This document shows, piece by piece, positions 27,800-55,159 of a stretch of DNA of 64,000 bases. Location: contig NZ_CP087164.1 of assembly GCF_021172045.1 (NCBI RefSeq), forward strand, positions 496,001 to 560,000. The letters are read 5' to 3'. A program made the translations under genes and the position numbers. A model generated the notes under the pieces. That model did not search any database. It was not told where the DNA came from and saw only the letters and a program-made list of their open reading frames with translations. How positions within the stretch are numbered: the stretch's first letter is position 1; every line of letters begins with the position of its first letter. The stretch comes from Capillimicrobium parvum. GTDB taxonomy: Bacteria > Actinomycetota > Thermoleophilia > Solirubrobacterales > Solirubrobacteraceae.

Positions 27800-28693
27800 A
27801 TGTTCGGCGCCGTGTCCTTCGCCCCGCTGCAGCTCGCACCCGCGACGATCGCGGGCGTCCTGTACGCGGTGCGCGCGCACCACCTCGGCCAGCGCGGCAA
27901 GGCGGTGCCGGTCTGGCGGCAGTCCTGCTTCTACGGGGGGCTGGCCGTCATCGTGGTCTCCCTGACCGCGCTCGGCGACCTCGCCGGCGAGACGTTCGTC
28001 GCGCACATGTCCGAGCACCTGCTGATCGGCGATCTCGCCACGCTGCTGCTCGTCCTGGGGCTCACCGGGCCGCTGCTGGCCCCGCTGCTGCGCATCCACC
28101 TGCTCGACCCGCTGCGCGTGCTCACCCACCCGCTCATCGCGCTGCCGCTGTGGGCGTTCGACCTGTACCTGTGGCACCTGCCCGCGCTGCACGAGGCGGC
28201 GGTCCGCCACGAGGCGCTGCATGCGGTCCAGCACGGCATGTTCATCACCTTCGGCGTCCTGATGTGGATGCCGCTGTTCGGCCCGCTGCCCAAGCCGCCG
28301 TGGTTCGGCAACCTGGCCAAGCTCTTCTACATCATCGCCGTGCGCCTGCTGGGCGGCGTGCTCGGCAACGTGCTGCTGTGGTCGGGGACGGTGCTCTACC
28401 CGGTCTACGGCGAGCCGGTGTCCGACCAGACGACGGCGGCGGCGATCATGATGATCGAGAGCTCGTTCGTCACGCTCGGCCTGTTCGGCTGGCTGTTCTT
28501 CCGGGCCGCGCGCGAGAGCGAGGAGCGCCAGCAGCTGCTCGAGCTGGCGGCGGCGCGCGGCGTGGAGCTCTCCGAGGAGCGCGCCGCGCGGGCGGTCAGC
28601 GCCGGCCGCGGCGACGAGCTGCGCCGCCGGATCGAGGCCGGCGGTTTGACGGCGGCGGGCCATCCCGGCACGAAGCTGTCATGGGATTCATGA
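27800..28693 (+). CDS. ctaG: Cytochrome c oxidase assembly factor CtaG-like membrane protein
   Basis: A 297-residue polytopic protein of the caa3-type CtaG family, which helps insert copper into or assemble cytochrome c oxidase. About seven TM helices. The family's histidines are visible: FVAHMSEHLLIGDLATLLL, LYLWHLPALHEAAVRHEALH and AVQHGMFITFGVLMW. A cytoplasmic helical tail ends in SWDS. The stop TGA (28691-28693) lies inside the left 19-bp direct repeat of the adjacent insertion, which leaves the gene intact. A possible -10 TAGCGT is 12 nt before the ATG. Confidence 0.9.
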   Translation: MFGAVSFAPLQLAPATIAGVLYAVRAHHLGQRGKAVPVWRQSCFYGGLAVIVVSLTALGDLAGETFVAHMSEHLLIGDLATLLLVLGLTGPLLAPLLRIHLLDPLRVLTHPLIALPLWAFDLYLWHLPALHEAAVRHEALHAVQHGMFITFGVLMWMPLFGPLPKPPWFGNLAKLFYIIAVRLLGGVLGNVLLWSGTVLYPVYGEPVSDQTTAAAIMMIESSFVTLGLFGWLFFRAARESEERQQLLELAAARGVELSEERAARAVSAGRGDELRRRIEAGGLTAAGHPGTKLSWDS

Positions 28694-28696
28694 ACC
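28678..28696 (+). repeat. Left copy of 19-bp direct repeat flanking the insertion
   Basis: GTCATGGGATTCATGAACC is identical to 31161-31179. It covers the ctaG stop codon and contains an internal dyad TCATG-ggatt-CATGA. The distance between copies is 2,483 bp. Next to it begins an arm (CAGAACCC... AAGCCAA, 28697-28718) that is inverted at the right end. Confidence 0.85.
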
Positions 28697-28718
28697 CAGA
28701 ACCCGATAGATAAGCCAA
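28697..28718 (+). repeat. Left inverted-repeat arm of the insertion
   Basis: CAGAACCC (28697-28704), GATAGAT, then AAGCCAA (28712-28718). It pairs with the arm at 31137-31160, matching 7 of 8 in the outer block and 7 of 7 in the inner block. Confidence 0.6.
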
Positions 28719-29168
28719 GAATCGCGGGTGAATACGAGCAGTCAGCCCGTCGCTGCTGCTTCTGACGGATGCGGGAGCGGCGCGGCATCCGATCGCGAGC
28801 CGCTGGGCGCCTGCTCGTCGTCCCGAACGAGCGTCGGCGGATCGTCGAGCGAGACGCTCGCTCGTTTCACAAGTGCGGAAATCGACAACGCCGGCGACGC
28901 TGAACGGGATTGCGCACTCGGCCTCCCGCATCGAGGACACTTGCGTCATCGCGTGGCTCCTGCACCTGACGCTTGGCCTGCGCCGCGGGCATCGAGCGCA
29001 CCTGGAAGCCGAAGGCGGTTCTGGCCAAAGCCGCACCGCCTCGTGTGACGACCAGTGCCGGGGGGCGCCGGTCTGGTGGACAACCACCAGACGACGCTGC
29101 GCCGCGTCCGTGAGCCGCAACGAACAATCCTTCGTCGACCGGCGCGGGCGCTCGCCGAGCCGCGTGCG
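28719..29168. other. No gene recognised inside the left part of the insertion
   Basis: About 450 nt without a convincing frame. Open frames on both strands have skewed composition and no family features. The stretch may hold the promoter of the GAP-family gene or decayed sequence. Confidence 0.5.
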
Positions 29169-29849
29169 ATGACCTTCGAGGCGCTCGTCCTGGGGCTTTT
29201 CAGCGGATTACGGCCCGGGACAAGCGTCGGCGCGGTCCTGGCGTTGGTCAAAACGCCAAGGCCGCAGCGGCTACTGCTCTTCTTCACCGCCGCAGGCTTT
29301 GCCTCGAGTTGGGCGATCGGATTGGTAGTGGTCGGGGTCTTCCACGGCGCCAATGTCGCCGTCGGGGGGTCGACGATCACCGGCGTGCTCGACGTCGCCT
29401 TCGGTGCGGCGGCGCTCGGGTTCGCTGCCGGTCTGCAACGGGGCTGGGTTCAACCCACGCGTCGGGACAGTTCGAGCCCGTCGGCAACCGCCGCCGCGTC
29501 CTCGCGGCTAGGCCGGCGCCTGCGCAACCCGTCCGACCGCGTGGCCGCCGCCGCCGGGATAGGGACGCATCTACCTGGGCTCATCTACTTGGCGGCGCTC
29601 AACGCGATCGCCTCCGAACGGCCTGCTCCCGCCGACGTCGCCGTGCAGGTCGCGATCTACGACGCCCTCTGGTTCCTGGTCCCAATCGCGACACTCATCC
29701 TGGTGGTGGTGCGCCCGGGGGCGGCGCTCGCCTATCTCGCCGTCGCGACGGCCTGGGCCCGTCGTCACGAGCACAGCATCCTGCTGTTCGGCTCGCTCGT
29801 TCTCGGCGGCTACCTCATCGTCAAGGGGACGTCCGGTCTTCTCACCTGA
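29169..29849 (+). CDS. GAP-family (Sap/SfLAP-like) membrane protein
   Basis: A 226-residue protein with about six membrane helices in two triplets: residues ~1-100 (LVLGLFSGLRPGTSVGAVLA, then FTAAGFASSWAIGLVVVGVF) and ~130-226. A hydrophilic linker of ~35 residues (RDSSSPSATAAASSRLGRR) separates them. The layout matches the GAP family PF11139, whose mycobacterial members help move glycolipids across the membrane. The motif LRPGTSVGAVL and the second-half GLIYLAALNAIAS are typical. It lies in the lower-GC insertion and is probably cargo. The ATG at 29169 is the first that begins the first helix. Confidence 0.75.
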   Translation: MTFEALVLGLFSGLRPGTSVGAVLALVKTPRPQRLLLFFTAAGFASSWAIGLVVVGVFHGANVAVGGSTITGVLDVAFGAAALGFAAGLQRGWVQPTRRDSSSPSATAAASSRLGRRLRNPSDRVAAAAGIGTHLPGLIYLAALNAIASERPAPADVAVQVAIYDALWFLVPIATLILVVVRPGAALAYLAVATAWARRHEHSILLFGSLVLGGYLIVKGTSGLLT

Positions 29850-30014
29850 ACCGAGCCAACACGGCTGCGTCCGCTTCTCCTGTGCGCCGCCGAGCGTGGC
29901 GACGCGGGCGGTCCGGGAAGGCCGAGCACTGAATCACCGCGAAAGCCAGCAGCACCACTCTGCCGACCTCGCCTGGTGACAGCCCCTCAGGCACGGCTCA
30001 TTCGTGTCACGTCC

Positions 30015-30859
30015 TTACCGGGACGGGGTTGCCGGCGCCTTGGGCTGGAACGGCCTCATCTCAGCGTGGTCCGGGCCGACAATCCCGCACTGGGACTCCG
30101 GCACCTCGTTCCAGACCCCGGCGACGTCGCCGAGGGGCTCGGAGACGATCAGCCGCGCGTTCTCTGAGACCTCCTGGAACAGCTGCCGCCCGGGATAGAG
30201 CTTGCGCAGCGTGGGAACGTCGGTGGTGTAGAACAGCGAGCGGGAGTTCCTCTCGCTGGAGTACCGGAACGCCCAGATGGTTTCGCCGTCGGTGGTCGCG
30301 ATCGTGCCCTGGAACGGGTTCGGCACGCCGTGGCGAGCGGCGACCGCTTCGACGAGCCCGATCGCCTGCTCGACGGCAGCCGGCGGGTCGTTCTCGAGGC
30401 CGAGGGTGAGGGCGAGAAAGAACAGCACCTCGGTGTCGGCCTGGCCTCGGATCTCTGGATAGAGCGACGGGTCGATGGCGAGAACGAGGTCGCGTTTGAC
30501 CGTGGCGAACTCGTTGAGGTAGCCGTTGTGCATGAACAGCCAGCGGTCATGGCGGAAGGGGTGACAGTTGGTCTGCTGCACGGCGCTGCCGATCGCCGCC
30601 CGGATATGCGTGAAGAACAAGGGCGAGCTGATATGACCGGCGAGCTCGCGGAGATTGCTGTCGTTCCAGGCCGGCTCGGTGCTGTGAAAGACGCCCGGCG
30701 TATCGGGGCGCCGTACCACCCGACTCCAAACCCGTCGCCATTGGTCGGCTCGGCCCCGAGATGCGAGTGCAGGCTCTGGGCGACAAGAGAGTTGGGCCCC
30801 TCATAGAGCGCCTCCTGGATCAGGATCGGGGAGCCGGAGTATGCGAGCCAGCGACACAT
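30015..30859 (-). pseudogene. Class II glutamine amidotransferase (YafJ-like), frameshifted
   Basis: The start MCRWLAYSGSPILIQ at 30859 gives Cys2 as nucleophile; the same frame continues through GDGFGVGWYG. The rest of the protein (TPGVFHSTEPAWNDSNLREL, HIRAAIGSAVQQTNCHPF and WLFMHNGYLNEF) continues in another frame to the stop at 30015. Adding one C to the C-run at 30705-30708 would join them as GWYG-AP-DTPGVF, close to the family pattern. Intact length would be ~281 residues. Either a real single-base deletion or a sequencing error in a homopolymer. The gene is inside the lower-GC insertion. Substrate of the family is unknown. Confidence 0.8.
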
Positions 30860-31136
30860 GTGCCACGCCTCTCTGTCGGAGTGCCATACCGGCGTCACGC
30901 GCGTCCGAGCAGCGTCACGGCACGCTGACGCCAGAACAAGCCGGAGGGCCCTACGACCAGATGATCGAGACTCCCGGGCGCTCGGGCATCATTCGAACGG
31001 GGTGATCCACGACCCAGCACGCGCCCCGGACACGGCACCGGTCATGCCGCGAACCTACGACGCACTCCTCTCGCCCGTTCAAGCGACGCAACCAGTTCAA
31101 CCAGCGCAGCACAAGAACGCGATGAGCTAGCCAAAT
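30860..31136. other. No gene recognised in the right part of the insertion
   Basis: About 280 nt between the amidotransferase start and the right arm. No frame has family features. The last part is clearly AT-richer and contains the perfect 14-bp palindrome AGCCAAATTTGGCT (31129-31142), which overlaps the inner block of the right arm. Confidence 0.5.
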
Positions 31137-31160
31137 TTGGCTTGACTGCTTAGGGTTCAG
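31137..31160 (-). repeat. Right inverted-repeat arm of the insertion
   Basis: Reads on the minus strand CTGAACCC (31160-31153), 9 nt, AAGCCAA (31143-31137), the inverted counterpart of the arm at 28697-28718. Confidence 0.6.
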
Positions 31161-31179
31161 GTCATGGGATTCATGAACC
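31161..31179 (+). repeat. Right copy of 19-bp direct repeat
   Basis: Identical to 28678-28696. It contains the ATG (31164) and first codons of the 52-aa gene, so both the ctaG stop and this gene's start survived the insertion. Confidence 0.85.
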
Positions 31180-51758: not shown

Positions 51759-52025
51759 CTACTCGCGGTGTTCGCCGAGTCCGCGCCAGTACTGGCGCCC
51801 GGCCCAGCGGTCCAGCCGCCAGGCGCCGAGCGTCACGGCGCCGAGCAGCACGCCGTAGCCGGCCACGCCGCCCGCCCGGTGCTCGACGACCGGCACGCCC
51901 GCCATGAGCCCGCCGAACGCGGCGGCCCACCCGAGCCCGCGCCACGGCACGTCCCACGAGCGGTCGCGCGATGGCTCCTCGGGCGGGCGCTTGTCGCCCT
52001 CGTGGATCAGCCCGACGACGATCAT
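51759..52025 (-). CDS. Small membrane-associated protein (88 aa)
   Basis: The ATG at 52025 overlaps the stop of the exporter gene (ATGA). MIVVGLIHEGDKRPPEEPSR starts the protein; two hydrophobic segments (LGWAAAFGGLMAGVPVV and GGVAGYGVLLGAVTLGAW) follow, then WAGRQYWRGLGEHRE. It is probably a two-helix membrane protein co-translated with the exporter. No family recognised. Confidence 0.65.
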   Translation of the reverse strand: MIVVGLIHEGDKRPPEEPSRDRSWDVPWRGLGWAAAFGGLMAGVPVVEHRAGGVAGYGVLLGAVTLGAWRLDRWAGRQYWRGLGEHRE

Positions 52026-52876
52026 CCGGCATCCAAGGCTACTCCTGGGGACGCGGGTTCTCCAGCGCCAACCCGCTCGCGATGCAGCGCCACCGCGGCC
52101 ACCACCAGCACCAGCCCGCCGGTCTCCACGGCGGTGGGAACCTGGCCGAGCACCACCACGCCGACGAGCGCCGCGGTCGCGGGCATCAGCGCGACCAGGA
52201 GCGCATACGTCGCGCGGGGCAGGCGGCCCATCGCCAGCTGATCGCACACGTACGGGATCACCGACGAGCACAGCCCCACGCCGATGGCCGCCGCGAGCCC
52301 GACCGGATCGGTCAGCCCCGGCAGTGCCGCCCAGCCCGCGAGCGGGGTGACCACGGCCAGCGCGACGAGCATCGCCGCTCCGAGACCGTCGATCCCCGAG
52401 ATCCGCGACACGCGGTGCGCGGTGACGATGTACAGCGCGAAGAGGGCGGCGTTGGCGAACGCGAACGCGAGGCCGACCGCCTCGGCCTCCCAGCGCACGT
52501 TGCACAGGGCGAGCACGCCCGCCGTCGCCAGCCCGAGGGCCGCCCAGTTGCGCGCCGTCCGCGTGCCCATGGCGGCCACGACGAGGACGCCGCCGAACTC
52601 GATCGCGGCGACCGTGCCCAGCGGCAGCCGGTCGATGGCCTCGTAGAAGCAGACGTTCATCACCGCGATCGCGACCCCGAGCGCGACGACCGGGCGCGAC
52701 CACGCCCGCCACGGCCGCCGCACCGCGGCGAACACCACGGCCGCCGTGGCGATCCGCAGCCACGCCACGCCCAGCACGCTTACCCGCGAGAACAGCAGCA
52801 CCGCGAACGCCGGCCCGAGGTAGTGGAAGACCGCCGAGCCGACGAAGTACGCGTGGGGAGGCAGGCGGCGCAGCAT
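52022..52876 (-). CDS. EamA/RhtA-type drug/metabolite exporter
   Basis: A 284-residue polytopic protein with ten TM helices in two EamA repeats: first ~5-130 (WLRIATAAVVFAAVRRPWRA, FYEAIDRLPLGTVAAIEFGG), second ~140-270 (IPYVCDQLAMGRLPRATYAL, LVALMPATAALVGVVVLGQV). RhtA-like members export threonine/homoserine or other amino acids. The divergent Lrp-type gene, 64 nt away, is the probable regulator, as in many amino acid exporter pairs. ATG at 52876 begins just before the first helix. Confidence 0.9.
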   Translation of the reverse strand: MLRRLPPHAYFVGSAVFHYLGPAFAVLLFSRVSVLGVAWLRIATAAVVFAAVRRPWRAWSRPVVALGVAIAVMNVCFYEAIDRLPLGTVAAIEFGGVLVVAAMGTRTARNWAALGLATAGVLALCNVRWEAEAVGLAFAFANAALFALYIVTAHRVSRISGIDGLGAAMLVALAVVTPLAGWAALPGLTDPVGLAAAIGVGLCSSVIPYVCDQLAMGRLPRATYALLVALMPATAALVGVVVLGQVPTAVETGGLVLVVAAVALHRERVGAGEPASPGVALDAG

Positions 52877-52940
52877 CGGCTTGCATGCTGGACCCGAACG
52901 CGCAACGCTTGAAGGGCGAAAGGAAGGAGTTGACCGCAAA

Positions 52941-53411
52941 ATGGCTTCGGAGCCAAGGCGCAACGGGCTTCTCGACCCCACGAACATCCGTCTGATCGAG
53001 GAACTGCAGGCGAACGCACGCCTGACGCTCGCCGAGCTCGGTCGGCGCGTCGGGCTGTCGGCGCCGGCGGTGGCCGAGCGCATGGGCCGCCTCGAGGACG
53101 CCGGTGTGATCACCGGCTACCACGCCGCCGTCGACCCCCGGGCGCTCGGCTACGGGCTCGGCGCGATCCTCCGGATCCGGCCGGCACCGCGCCAGATCGC
53201 CGCGGTCGCCGACCTCGCCCGCGAGACCGGCGAGGTCGCCGAGTGCCACCGGATCACCGGCGAGGACTGCTTCCTCATGCGCCTGCACGTGCGCGACGTC
53301 GAGCAGCTCGAGGAGCTCATCGACCGCTTCGCCTTCTTCGGCCAGACGACCACGTCGATCATGCAGACCTCTCCGGTCGCGAGCCGCCCCGCGCCGCTGC
53401 CGGGGCCGTGA
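52941..53411 (+). CDS. Lrp/AsnC-family transcriptional regulator
   Basis: A 156-residue regulator. The HTH (LDPTNIRLIEELQANARLTL followed by AELGRRVGLSAPAVAERMGR) is at ~13-52 and the RAM/ligand domain (ILRIRPAPRQIAAVADLARE, HRITGEDCFLMRLHVRDVEQ) at ~70-150. Such proteins sense amino acids and control nearby transport genes; here the exporter diverges from it. ATG at 52941 with AGGAAGGAG 11 nt upstream. An in-frame start at 52881 would run into the exporter gene. Confidence 0.92.
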   Translation: MASEPRRNGLLDPTNIRLIEELQANARLTLAELGRRVGLSAPAVAERMGRLEDAGVITGYHAAVDPRALGYGLGAILRIRPAPRQIAAVADLARETGEVAECHRITGEDCFLMRLHVRDVEQLEELIDRFAFFGQTTTSIMQTSPVASRPAPLPGP

Positions 53412-53419
53412 CCGCCGCC

Positions 53420-53425
53420 TACGAT
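53420..53425 (+). promoter_or_regulatory. -10 hexamer TACGAT before the HAD phosphatase
   Basis: TACGAT ends 6 nt before the GTG at 53432. It would give a leaderless transcript starting at that codon and lies inside the frame if the earlier GTG at 53408 is used. Confidence 0.4.
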
Positions 53426-53431
53426 GGTCCG

Positions 53432-54091
53432 GTGGCCATCGACGCCGTGATCTTCGACTGCGACGGGCTGCTCGTCGACACCGAGACCGCCTGGACCCGC
53501 GCCGAGCGCGTCCTCTACGGGCGCCGCGGCGTCGCGTTCACGCTCGACCACAAGCGCGAGCTCCTCGGCACGTCGGGGCCGGTCGCGCAGGCCATCGTCG
53601 AGCGCCACCTCGGTCTCGAGCCGGGCTCCGGCGTGACGCTGCAGCAGGAGATGCACGAGCTCGCCCTGCTCGAGATCCAGCGCACGGCGCCGCCGATGCC
53701 GGGCGCGCCCGAGCTCGTCGCGGAGCTGCGGCGCGCGGGCATGCCGATCGGCCTCGCGTCGAACTCGCCGCACACCCTGCTGCGCCCCAGTCTGCGCAGC
53801 GCCGGCTTCGACACGGTGTTCGGCGCGGTCGTCAGCGCCCAGGACGTCGTGCTCGGCAAGCCGGCGCCCGACGTCTACCTCGAGGCCTGCCGCCGCCTCG
53901 GCGCCGATCCGGCCCGCAGCATCGCGCTCGAGGACTCGCCGACCGGCGTCGGCGCCGCCCGCGCCGCAGGGATGTTCGTCATCGGCGTCCCGTCGCTGCC
54001 CGGCATCGAGCTGACTGGTGCGAGCCTCGTGGCCGAGGCGCTGCACGCCGCCGAGGTGCGCAGCGCGCTCGGCCTTCGGCTCGCCGCCTGA
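53432..54091 (+). CDS. HAD-superfamily phosphatase (beta-PGM/GS1-like)
   Basis: A 219-residue hydrolase. Motif I is AVIFDCDGLLVDTETAW (Asp nucleophile), motif II GLASNSPHT, motif III Lys in VLGKPAPDVYLEACRRLG and motif IV ALEDSPTGVGAARAAGM. A helical cap lies between motifs I and II (EMHELALLEIQRTAPPMPGA). Resembles sugar-phosphate phosphatases/phosphoglucomutases; substrate unknown. The GTG at 53432 is favoured by the TACGAT just upstream; a GTG at 53408 would overlap the Lrp stop (GTGA) and add eight residues. Confidence 0.88.
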   Translation: MAIDAVIFDCDGLLVDTETAWTRAERVLYGRRGVAFTLDHKRELLGTSGPVAQAIVERHLGLEPGSGVTLQQEMHELALLEIQRTAPPMPGAPELVAELRRAGMPIGLASNSPHTLLRPSLRSAGFDTVFGAVVSAQDVVLGKPAPDVYLEACRRLGADPARSIALEDSPTGVGAARAAGMFVIGVPSLPGIELTGASLVAEALHAAEVRSALGLRLAA

Positions 54092-54107
54092 GAGCCGCTG
54101 CGGGCCG

Positions 54108-54113
54108 TACTCT
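54108..54113 (+). promoter_or_regulatory. -10 hexamer TACTCT for the flippase-like gene
   Basis: TACTCT ends 8 nt before the GTG at 54122; no Shine-Dalgarno. Confidence 0.45.
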
Positions 54114-54121
54114 GGCGAGCA

Positions 54122-55159
54122 GTGCCCTTCGCCGACCTCTCGTCCTTCTGGAACGGCGTCGAGTCGTTCTTCTCGAGCCTGGCTGATGTCAACTGGTTGG
54201 CGCTCCTGCTCGGCCTCGTCTTCTTCGGCACCTACCTCAGCATCCGCTCGCGCGCGTACTTCAACGTGCTGCGGGCCGCCTACCCGGGCGAGCGCTTCCA
54301 GTGGCGGCGGATCTGGGGGGCCTACGTCGCGGCGTACGGCTTCAACAGCGTCATCCCCGCCCGCGGCGGCGACGTCATCAAGCTGTTCCTCGTCAAGACG
54401 TCGGTGCCGAACTCGACCTACCCTGCGGTCGCCTCGTCGTTCTTCGTCGAGGCGGTGTTCGACGCGACGATCGCCGTCCCGGTCCTGATCTTCGCGTTCA
54501 CGCAGGGGGTGTTCCCGAAGCCGCCGGACTTCTCGGACCTCGGCGCGTTCGACCTGAGCTTCTTCGCGTCGCACCTGCAGTTCACGCTGTTCCTGATCAC
54601 CGCGGTGGCGATCCTGATCCTCGTCGGCTTCGCAGTGCTGTCGCGCCGCGTCAAGGCGTTCTGGGCGCGGGTGAAACAGGGCGTGACGATCCTGTTCGAC
54701 CGCCGGCGCTACGTTCGCCAGGTCTGGCTCGTGCAGTTCGGCGGCTGGCTGTTTCGCTGCGCGGCGTTCTGGATGCTGCTCGACGCGTTCGGCGTCGGCG
54801 GCTCGGTGCGCAACGTGCTGCTCGTGCTCGGCGTCAACGCGATCGCGTCGCTGCTGCCGTTCACGCCGGGCGGCGCGGGCGTCCAGCAGGCGCTGCTGCT
54901 GAAGGTGTTCGCGGGGACGGCGACGAGCGCCACGGTGGCCGCCTACTCGGTCGGCCAGCAGATCGCGATCGCCGCGTTCAGCCTCGGCCTCGGCTTCGCC
55001 GCGCTCGTGTTCATCTTCAGGTTCCGCTCGTTCAAGGCGGTCATCGCCGCGGGCCGCGAGCACCGCGCCGCCGAGCAGGCCCGGCAGGCCGACGCGCCCG
55101 ACGAGCCGGCGGCGCCGGGGCCTACTGCAGGCCGGCGCGCGCCTCGCGCACGAGCGTGA
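54122..55159 (+). CDS. Flippase-like membrane protein of the LPG synthase TM / UPF0104 family
   Basis: A 345-residue protein with about eight TM helices and the family signatures YVAAYGFNSVIPARGGDVIK (~80-99) and ASLLPFTPGGAGVQQALLL (~238-256). The family PF03706 includes the membrane part of MprF and lipid/glycan carriers. There is no MprF-like synthetase part, so it is a stand-alone carrier-like protein. The C-terminal ~30 residues (Ala/Pro/Arg rich) overlap the convergent 88-aa gene by 38 nt and are probably not conserved. Cargo unknown. Confidence 0.85.
   Translation: MPFADLSSFWNGVESFFSSLADVNWLALLLGLVFFGTYLSIRSRAYFNVLRAAYPGERFQWRRIWGAYVAAYGFNSVIPARGGDVIKLFLVKTSVPNSTYPAVASSFFVEAVFDATIAVPVLIFAFTQGVFPKPPDFSDLGAFDLSFFASHLQFTLFLITAVAILILVGFAVLSRRVKAFWARVKQGVTILFDRRRYVRQVWLVQFGGWLFRCAAFWMLLDAFGVGGSVRNVLLVLGVNAIASLLPFTPGGAGVQQALLLKVFAGTATSATVAAYSVGQQIAIAAFSLGLGFAALVFIFRFRSFKAVIAAGREHRAAEQARQADAPDEPAAPGPTAGRRAPRARA

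Follow-up and report, generated by a model that had tools for sequence, protein, structure and literature searches.

A 2464-bp insertion between ctaG and a small downstream gene, bounded by a 19-bp direct repeat, is probably a non-autonomous transposon

Long or variable target duplications are known from two groups of insertion sequences. IS1549 and IS1634 are flanked by direct repeats of 8-514 bp and share the terminal consensus C-----YT (PMC2266710). The IS1202 subgroup produces target duplications of 16-28 bp, and the ends of the IS1202 family begin with 5'-TGT (PMC10132070). Non-autonomous relatives of transposons are also described: Tn3-derived TIMEs and mosaic transposons carry passenger genes and are moved in trans (PMC4133298). 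Here we describe an insert found in a 64-kb stretch of DNA (the window, the whole of which was analysed) that resembles the TIMEs in having terminal inverted repeats, a target duplication and passenger genes, and in lacking a transposase. TIMEs belong to the Tn3 group, with 5-bp duplications and G-rich ends, and their parents are known, whereas the duplication here is 19 bp long and there is no known parent. The features of the locus, in window coordinates, are the following.

27800-28693, plus strand: ctaG, caa3 cytochrome oxidase assembly factor, left neighbour of the insert (Pfam Caa3_CtaG, 6.4e-45)
28678-28696, plus strand: target duplication of 19 bp, left copy, GTCATGGGATTCATGAACC (exact match)
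28697-28718, plus strand: left terminal inverted repeat, CAGAACCCGATAGATAAGCCAA (sole paired occurrence in the genomes searched)
28697-31160, no strand: inserted element, 2464 bp, G+C 67.5% (identified by its G+C contrast and its absence from the ctaG/p52 junction of relatives)
29172-29849, plus strand: passenger gene 1, SfLAP/GAP-family membrane protein (Pfam PF11139, 2.3e-19)
30015-30859, minus strand: passenger gene 2, class-II glutamine amidotransferase, EgtC-like, frameshifted (profile and homologue comparison)
31137-31160, minus strand: right terminal inverted repeat, CTGAACCCTAAGCAGTCAAGCCAA in minus-strand reading (sequence comparison with the left arm)
31161-31179, plus strand: target duplication of 19 bp, right copy, which includes the p52 start codon
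31164-31322, plus strand: p52, conserved small 52-aa protein, right neighbour (orthologues directly downstream of ctaG in five relatives)

A preliminary description of the locus, made from the sequence of the window, had reported an exact 19-mer at both borders and a lower G+C content between them, and both observations hold. The two copies of GTCATGGGATTCATGAACC, at 28678-28696 and 31161-31179, agree at 19/19 positions and constitute the sole repeated 19-mer anywhere in the 64 kb; no third site is present in the window at up to three mismatches, and shuffled sequence yields 0 matches. The size of 2.48 kb given earlier is the start-to-start spacing of the 19-mers (2483), the insert proper being 2464 bp. 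Its G+C content is 67.45%, as compared to 73.8% (sd 2.0) for 1132 equal-length windows outside the insert, none of which (0/1132) is as low. The difference extends to third codon positions, where G+C is 0.83-0.89 in the two genes inside and 0.95-0.97 in the neighbours. As a separate matter of composition, AT skew is strong in the stretch 52001-55000, where kilobases close to each other differ in sign (+0.35 at 52-53 kb and -0.33 at 54-55 kb); these are the largest values in the window.

The stop codon of ctaG falls within the left copy of the 19-mer, which is itself the start of the p52 gene (ATGGGATTCATGAACC, encoding M G F M N). With both the ctaG stop and the small-gene start lying inside the duplicated stretch, neither reading frame is broken. 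The empty site that the preliminary description proposed to look for in related genomes is present. In five family members (L025, L027, L028, L030 and L031) ctaG is followed directly by a p52 orthologue, with no insert. In the same-genus genome G003, ctaG is followed by ...GGTTTGAC...ACCATGGGAATCCTGAACC..., where a single copy of the site matches at 15/19 positions (the next-best 19-mer match at that locus reaches only 12/19) and the small gene is reduced to a few codons. The ctaG neighbourhood is thus clearly free of the insert in six relatives, these five family members and G003. The ctaG loci of relatives lack the insert, so the arrangement in the window arose by insertion and the 19-bp repeat represents a duplication of the target. 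The insertion explains how two unrelated genes came to sit between ctaG and the gene that normally follows it, with neither neighbour broken.

In two other same-genus genomes, G001 and G002, the small gene has been lost and no insert of the 28697-31160 kind is present. The interval between ctaG and a PspC-like gene downstream varies within the genus, the small gene being missing or truncated (loci L134 in G002, L135 in G001 and L136 in G003); in G001 the interval contains an apparent aldo/keto reductase, and in G003 apparent remnants of both the small gene and the aldo/keto reductase.

The nature of the target bears on whether the insert could be a site-specific cassette, as the preliminary description had suggested. 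A tyrosine or serine recombinase supplied in trans would then have integrated a circular cassette, carrying the 19-mer as its core and inverted arm sites, into an identical core between ctaG and p52. Non-autonomous cassettes mobilized by a recombinase in trans do exist, the 19-mer contains a 5-5-5 dyad around which the arms are inverted, and both neighbouring frames are intact. However, the target, a gene start, is poorly conserved and lineage-specific: even within the genus it is matched at only 15/19 positions, at a site that carries no insert, and the dyad there is degraded (CCATGGGAATCCTGA in the empty site of G003). The dyad, previously likened to a recombinase core site, is best read as an incidental by-product of the start of the small gene (ATGGGATTCATGAAC). 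Nor does the insert contain an integrase gene, and no other copy of the core (in the window or the genomes searched) or of the arms (in the genomes searched) was found. Under site-specific integration the element would moreover have to contain a lineage-specific sequence copied perfectly over 19 nt, a coincidence that duplication by a staggered cut does not need. We therefore consider a site-specific cassette unlikely.

Directly inside the two 19-mers lie inverted repeats, as had been noticed before, although these terminal repeats are imperfect, 22 nt long on the left and 24 nt on the right, and not the 24-nt mirror copies first described. The left arm reads CAGAACCC-GATAGAT-AAGCCAA (28697-28718) and the right arm, on the minus strand, CTGAACCC-TAAGCAGTC-AAGCCAA (31160-31137). 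The arms agree at 7/8 positions of the tip (CWGAACCC) and 7/7 of the inner motif (AAGCCAA). A spacer of 7 nt separates these in the left arm; in the right arm it is 2 nt longer, at 9 nt. Both arms abut the 19-bp repeat exactly, as the ends of a terminal-inverted-repeat transposon do. Of 20,000 position pairs picked at random from the window, 10 had a composition-corrected score as high as that of the arms, as did 4 of 20,000 pairs drawn within the element. A cruder, uncorrected score is less striking (139/20,000 pairs as good) because G+C-rich stretches resemble one another and the arms are A+T-richer. A screen for direct repeats of at least 13 nt with inverted ends, run over about 800 kb of related sequence, returned only the 28697-31160 element and G+C-rich chance pairs; with a floor of 10 nt, the same screen of a further 398 kb in stretches of the own genome gave just weak G+C-rich pairs.

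These borders are also where an explanation that involves no transposon meets its difficulty. On such a view, a staggered double-strand break took up foreign DNA as it was repaired by end joining, and the repeat arose when overhangs of 19 nt were filled in. This would suit a single-copy insert that encodes no recombinase and in which a passenger gene has relatives within the same family that sit in ordinary contexts. It leaves unexplained why inverted repeats should stand exactly at both borders, and we regard such a capture as very improbable.

As the preliminary description had stated, the insert encodes neither a transposase nor an integrase: inspection of all open reading frames and six-frame read-through of the non-coding parts revealed no such gene or remnant inside it, and an Rfam search of the insert gave no match. 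What it does contain are two passenger genes. The first encodes an SfLAP/GAP-family membrane protein, its open frame reaching upstream to 29055; genes of this family are rare among the relatives searched. The second encodes the EgtC-like amidotransferase, with homologues at 73-78% DNA identity in family and order relatives. It is 1 nt shorter than these near 30705, where WYGDTPTPGVFHSTEP is expected, and is consequently split into two frames. The base is missing at a GGCGCCCCG run (window 30690-30720), and its loss may reflect either decay or a sequencing error. The amidotransferase homologues in G017, G032 and G052 lie in ordinary contexts with no element-like ends around them. A plasmid collection contained no relative of the SfLAP gene, and its amidotransferases were only ordinary ones at below 60% identity.

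Taken together, the insert is probably a non-autonomous terminal-inverted-repeat transposon with two passenger genes, mobilised by a DDE transposase acting from outside the element and generating duplications of about 19 bp. The 19/19 repeat and the insert-free relatives support the earlier view of a real non-autonomous insertion with an unusually long target duplication; a duplicated target whose empty site is found in relatives is what a transposon of this type leaves, and the absence of a transposase inside is what makes it non-autonomous. We favour a transposase making staggered cuts because the inverted tips sit exactly at the border of a direct repeat that is not conserved among relatives. 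The enzyme, a DDE-type transposase acting in trans, would bind both ends through the tip CWGAACCC and the inner motif AAGCCAA and cut the element out of its donor; at the beginning of the 52-aa gene it would cut the two strands 19 bp apart and join the element to them, and repair of the gaps would create the 19-bp direct repeat. What we infer from this arrangement is that the chemistry is of the DDE type, that the enzyme acted in trans and that a 19-bp stagger is characteristic of it. Several points count against a transposon. A 19-bp duplication exceeds the range of most IS families, and transposase binding sites do not usually differ by 2 nt in their spacer, as the two arms do. In the genomes compared, neither a second copy nor an autonomous partner with such ends was found, so that mobility as a unit rests on a single event.

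Long duplications could also point to a diverged derivative of a known family, either IS1634/IS1549-like or IS1202-like. The insert's 19 bp fall within the ranges of both, its ends begin with C as in the IS1634/IS1549 consensus, and its imperfect repeats are similar in length to those of the IS1202 group; relatives from the family and the order contain intact IS1634-family transposases. The ends themselves fit neither family. They start with CAG/CTG and not the TGT of IS1202, and positions 7-8 are CC on both sides, which departs from C-----YT. The candidate ends of the IS1634-family elements in relatives are different again (for example CCGAAGTTCC and CGGAAGTTTT). A transposase of either family is absent from the insert (for the IS1634 type, by open reading frames and six-frame read-through), and the own genome has no IS1634-family match. 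Descent from a known long-duplication family is thus improbable. The insert qualifies as a member of neither IS1202 nor IS1634, although it likely works like them in producing a long duplication.

The preliminary description had proposed looking for further copies of the arms and for an autonomous relative sharing them; neither came to light in about 775 genomes or in a collection of 84,980 species. The former comprise overlapping sets of 151 genomes (the own genome and 150 relatives), 399 of the class and 396 of the phylum, and in none of them was a facing pair of arms found beyond the 28697-31160 element. Unpaired matches in the class genomes all lie within open frames, and the few matches in the phylum genomes have no partner. 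The larger collection (one genome per species) gave 27 single matches and viral contigs gave two, about the chance expectation in both cases, and none of them was accompanied by a partner arm and a target repeat. All these patterns demand an exact tip and inner motif, and a parent with more diverged ends would escape them. A literature search for the end sequences of the insert returned nothing relevant.

The insert could be the first-seen member of a transposon family separate from both IS1202 and IS1634, in which the transposase cuts with a fixed stagger of about 19 bp and recognises ends of the form CWGAACCC...AAGCCAA, but we hold this only as a tentative and rather doubtful possibility. 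The preliminary description had raised an element of undescribed type, for which a single copy is insufficient proof; with one copy and no enzyme, we leave a new family open and do not claim it. The finding is solid but modest, and the transposase is its interesting part: a third type of end with a 19-bp duplication would be a further handle, if the corresponding enzyme is found.

Within the own genome, the search for a second copy of the element or its arms returned only an amidotransferase paralogue and chance matches. An arm-like match at 2,476,634 was rejected, as it lies inside a coding gene. A search for DDE transposases of the DDE_Tnp_1 and rve types yielded few in the genome, and CWGAACCC ends are not paired around any of them. 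Four near-identical IS copies of about 1,065 bp with an rve-type transposase lie at approximately 628.7k, 988k, 1565k and 3707k (L176-L179); the genome thus has recently active IS, with ends unrelated to those of the insert. A DDE_Tnp_1 transposase is found in a 1,615-bp element whose two copies, at approximately 1,356k and 3,249k (L172 and L173), are 99.9% identical.
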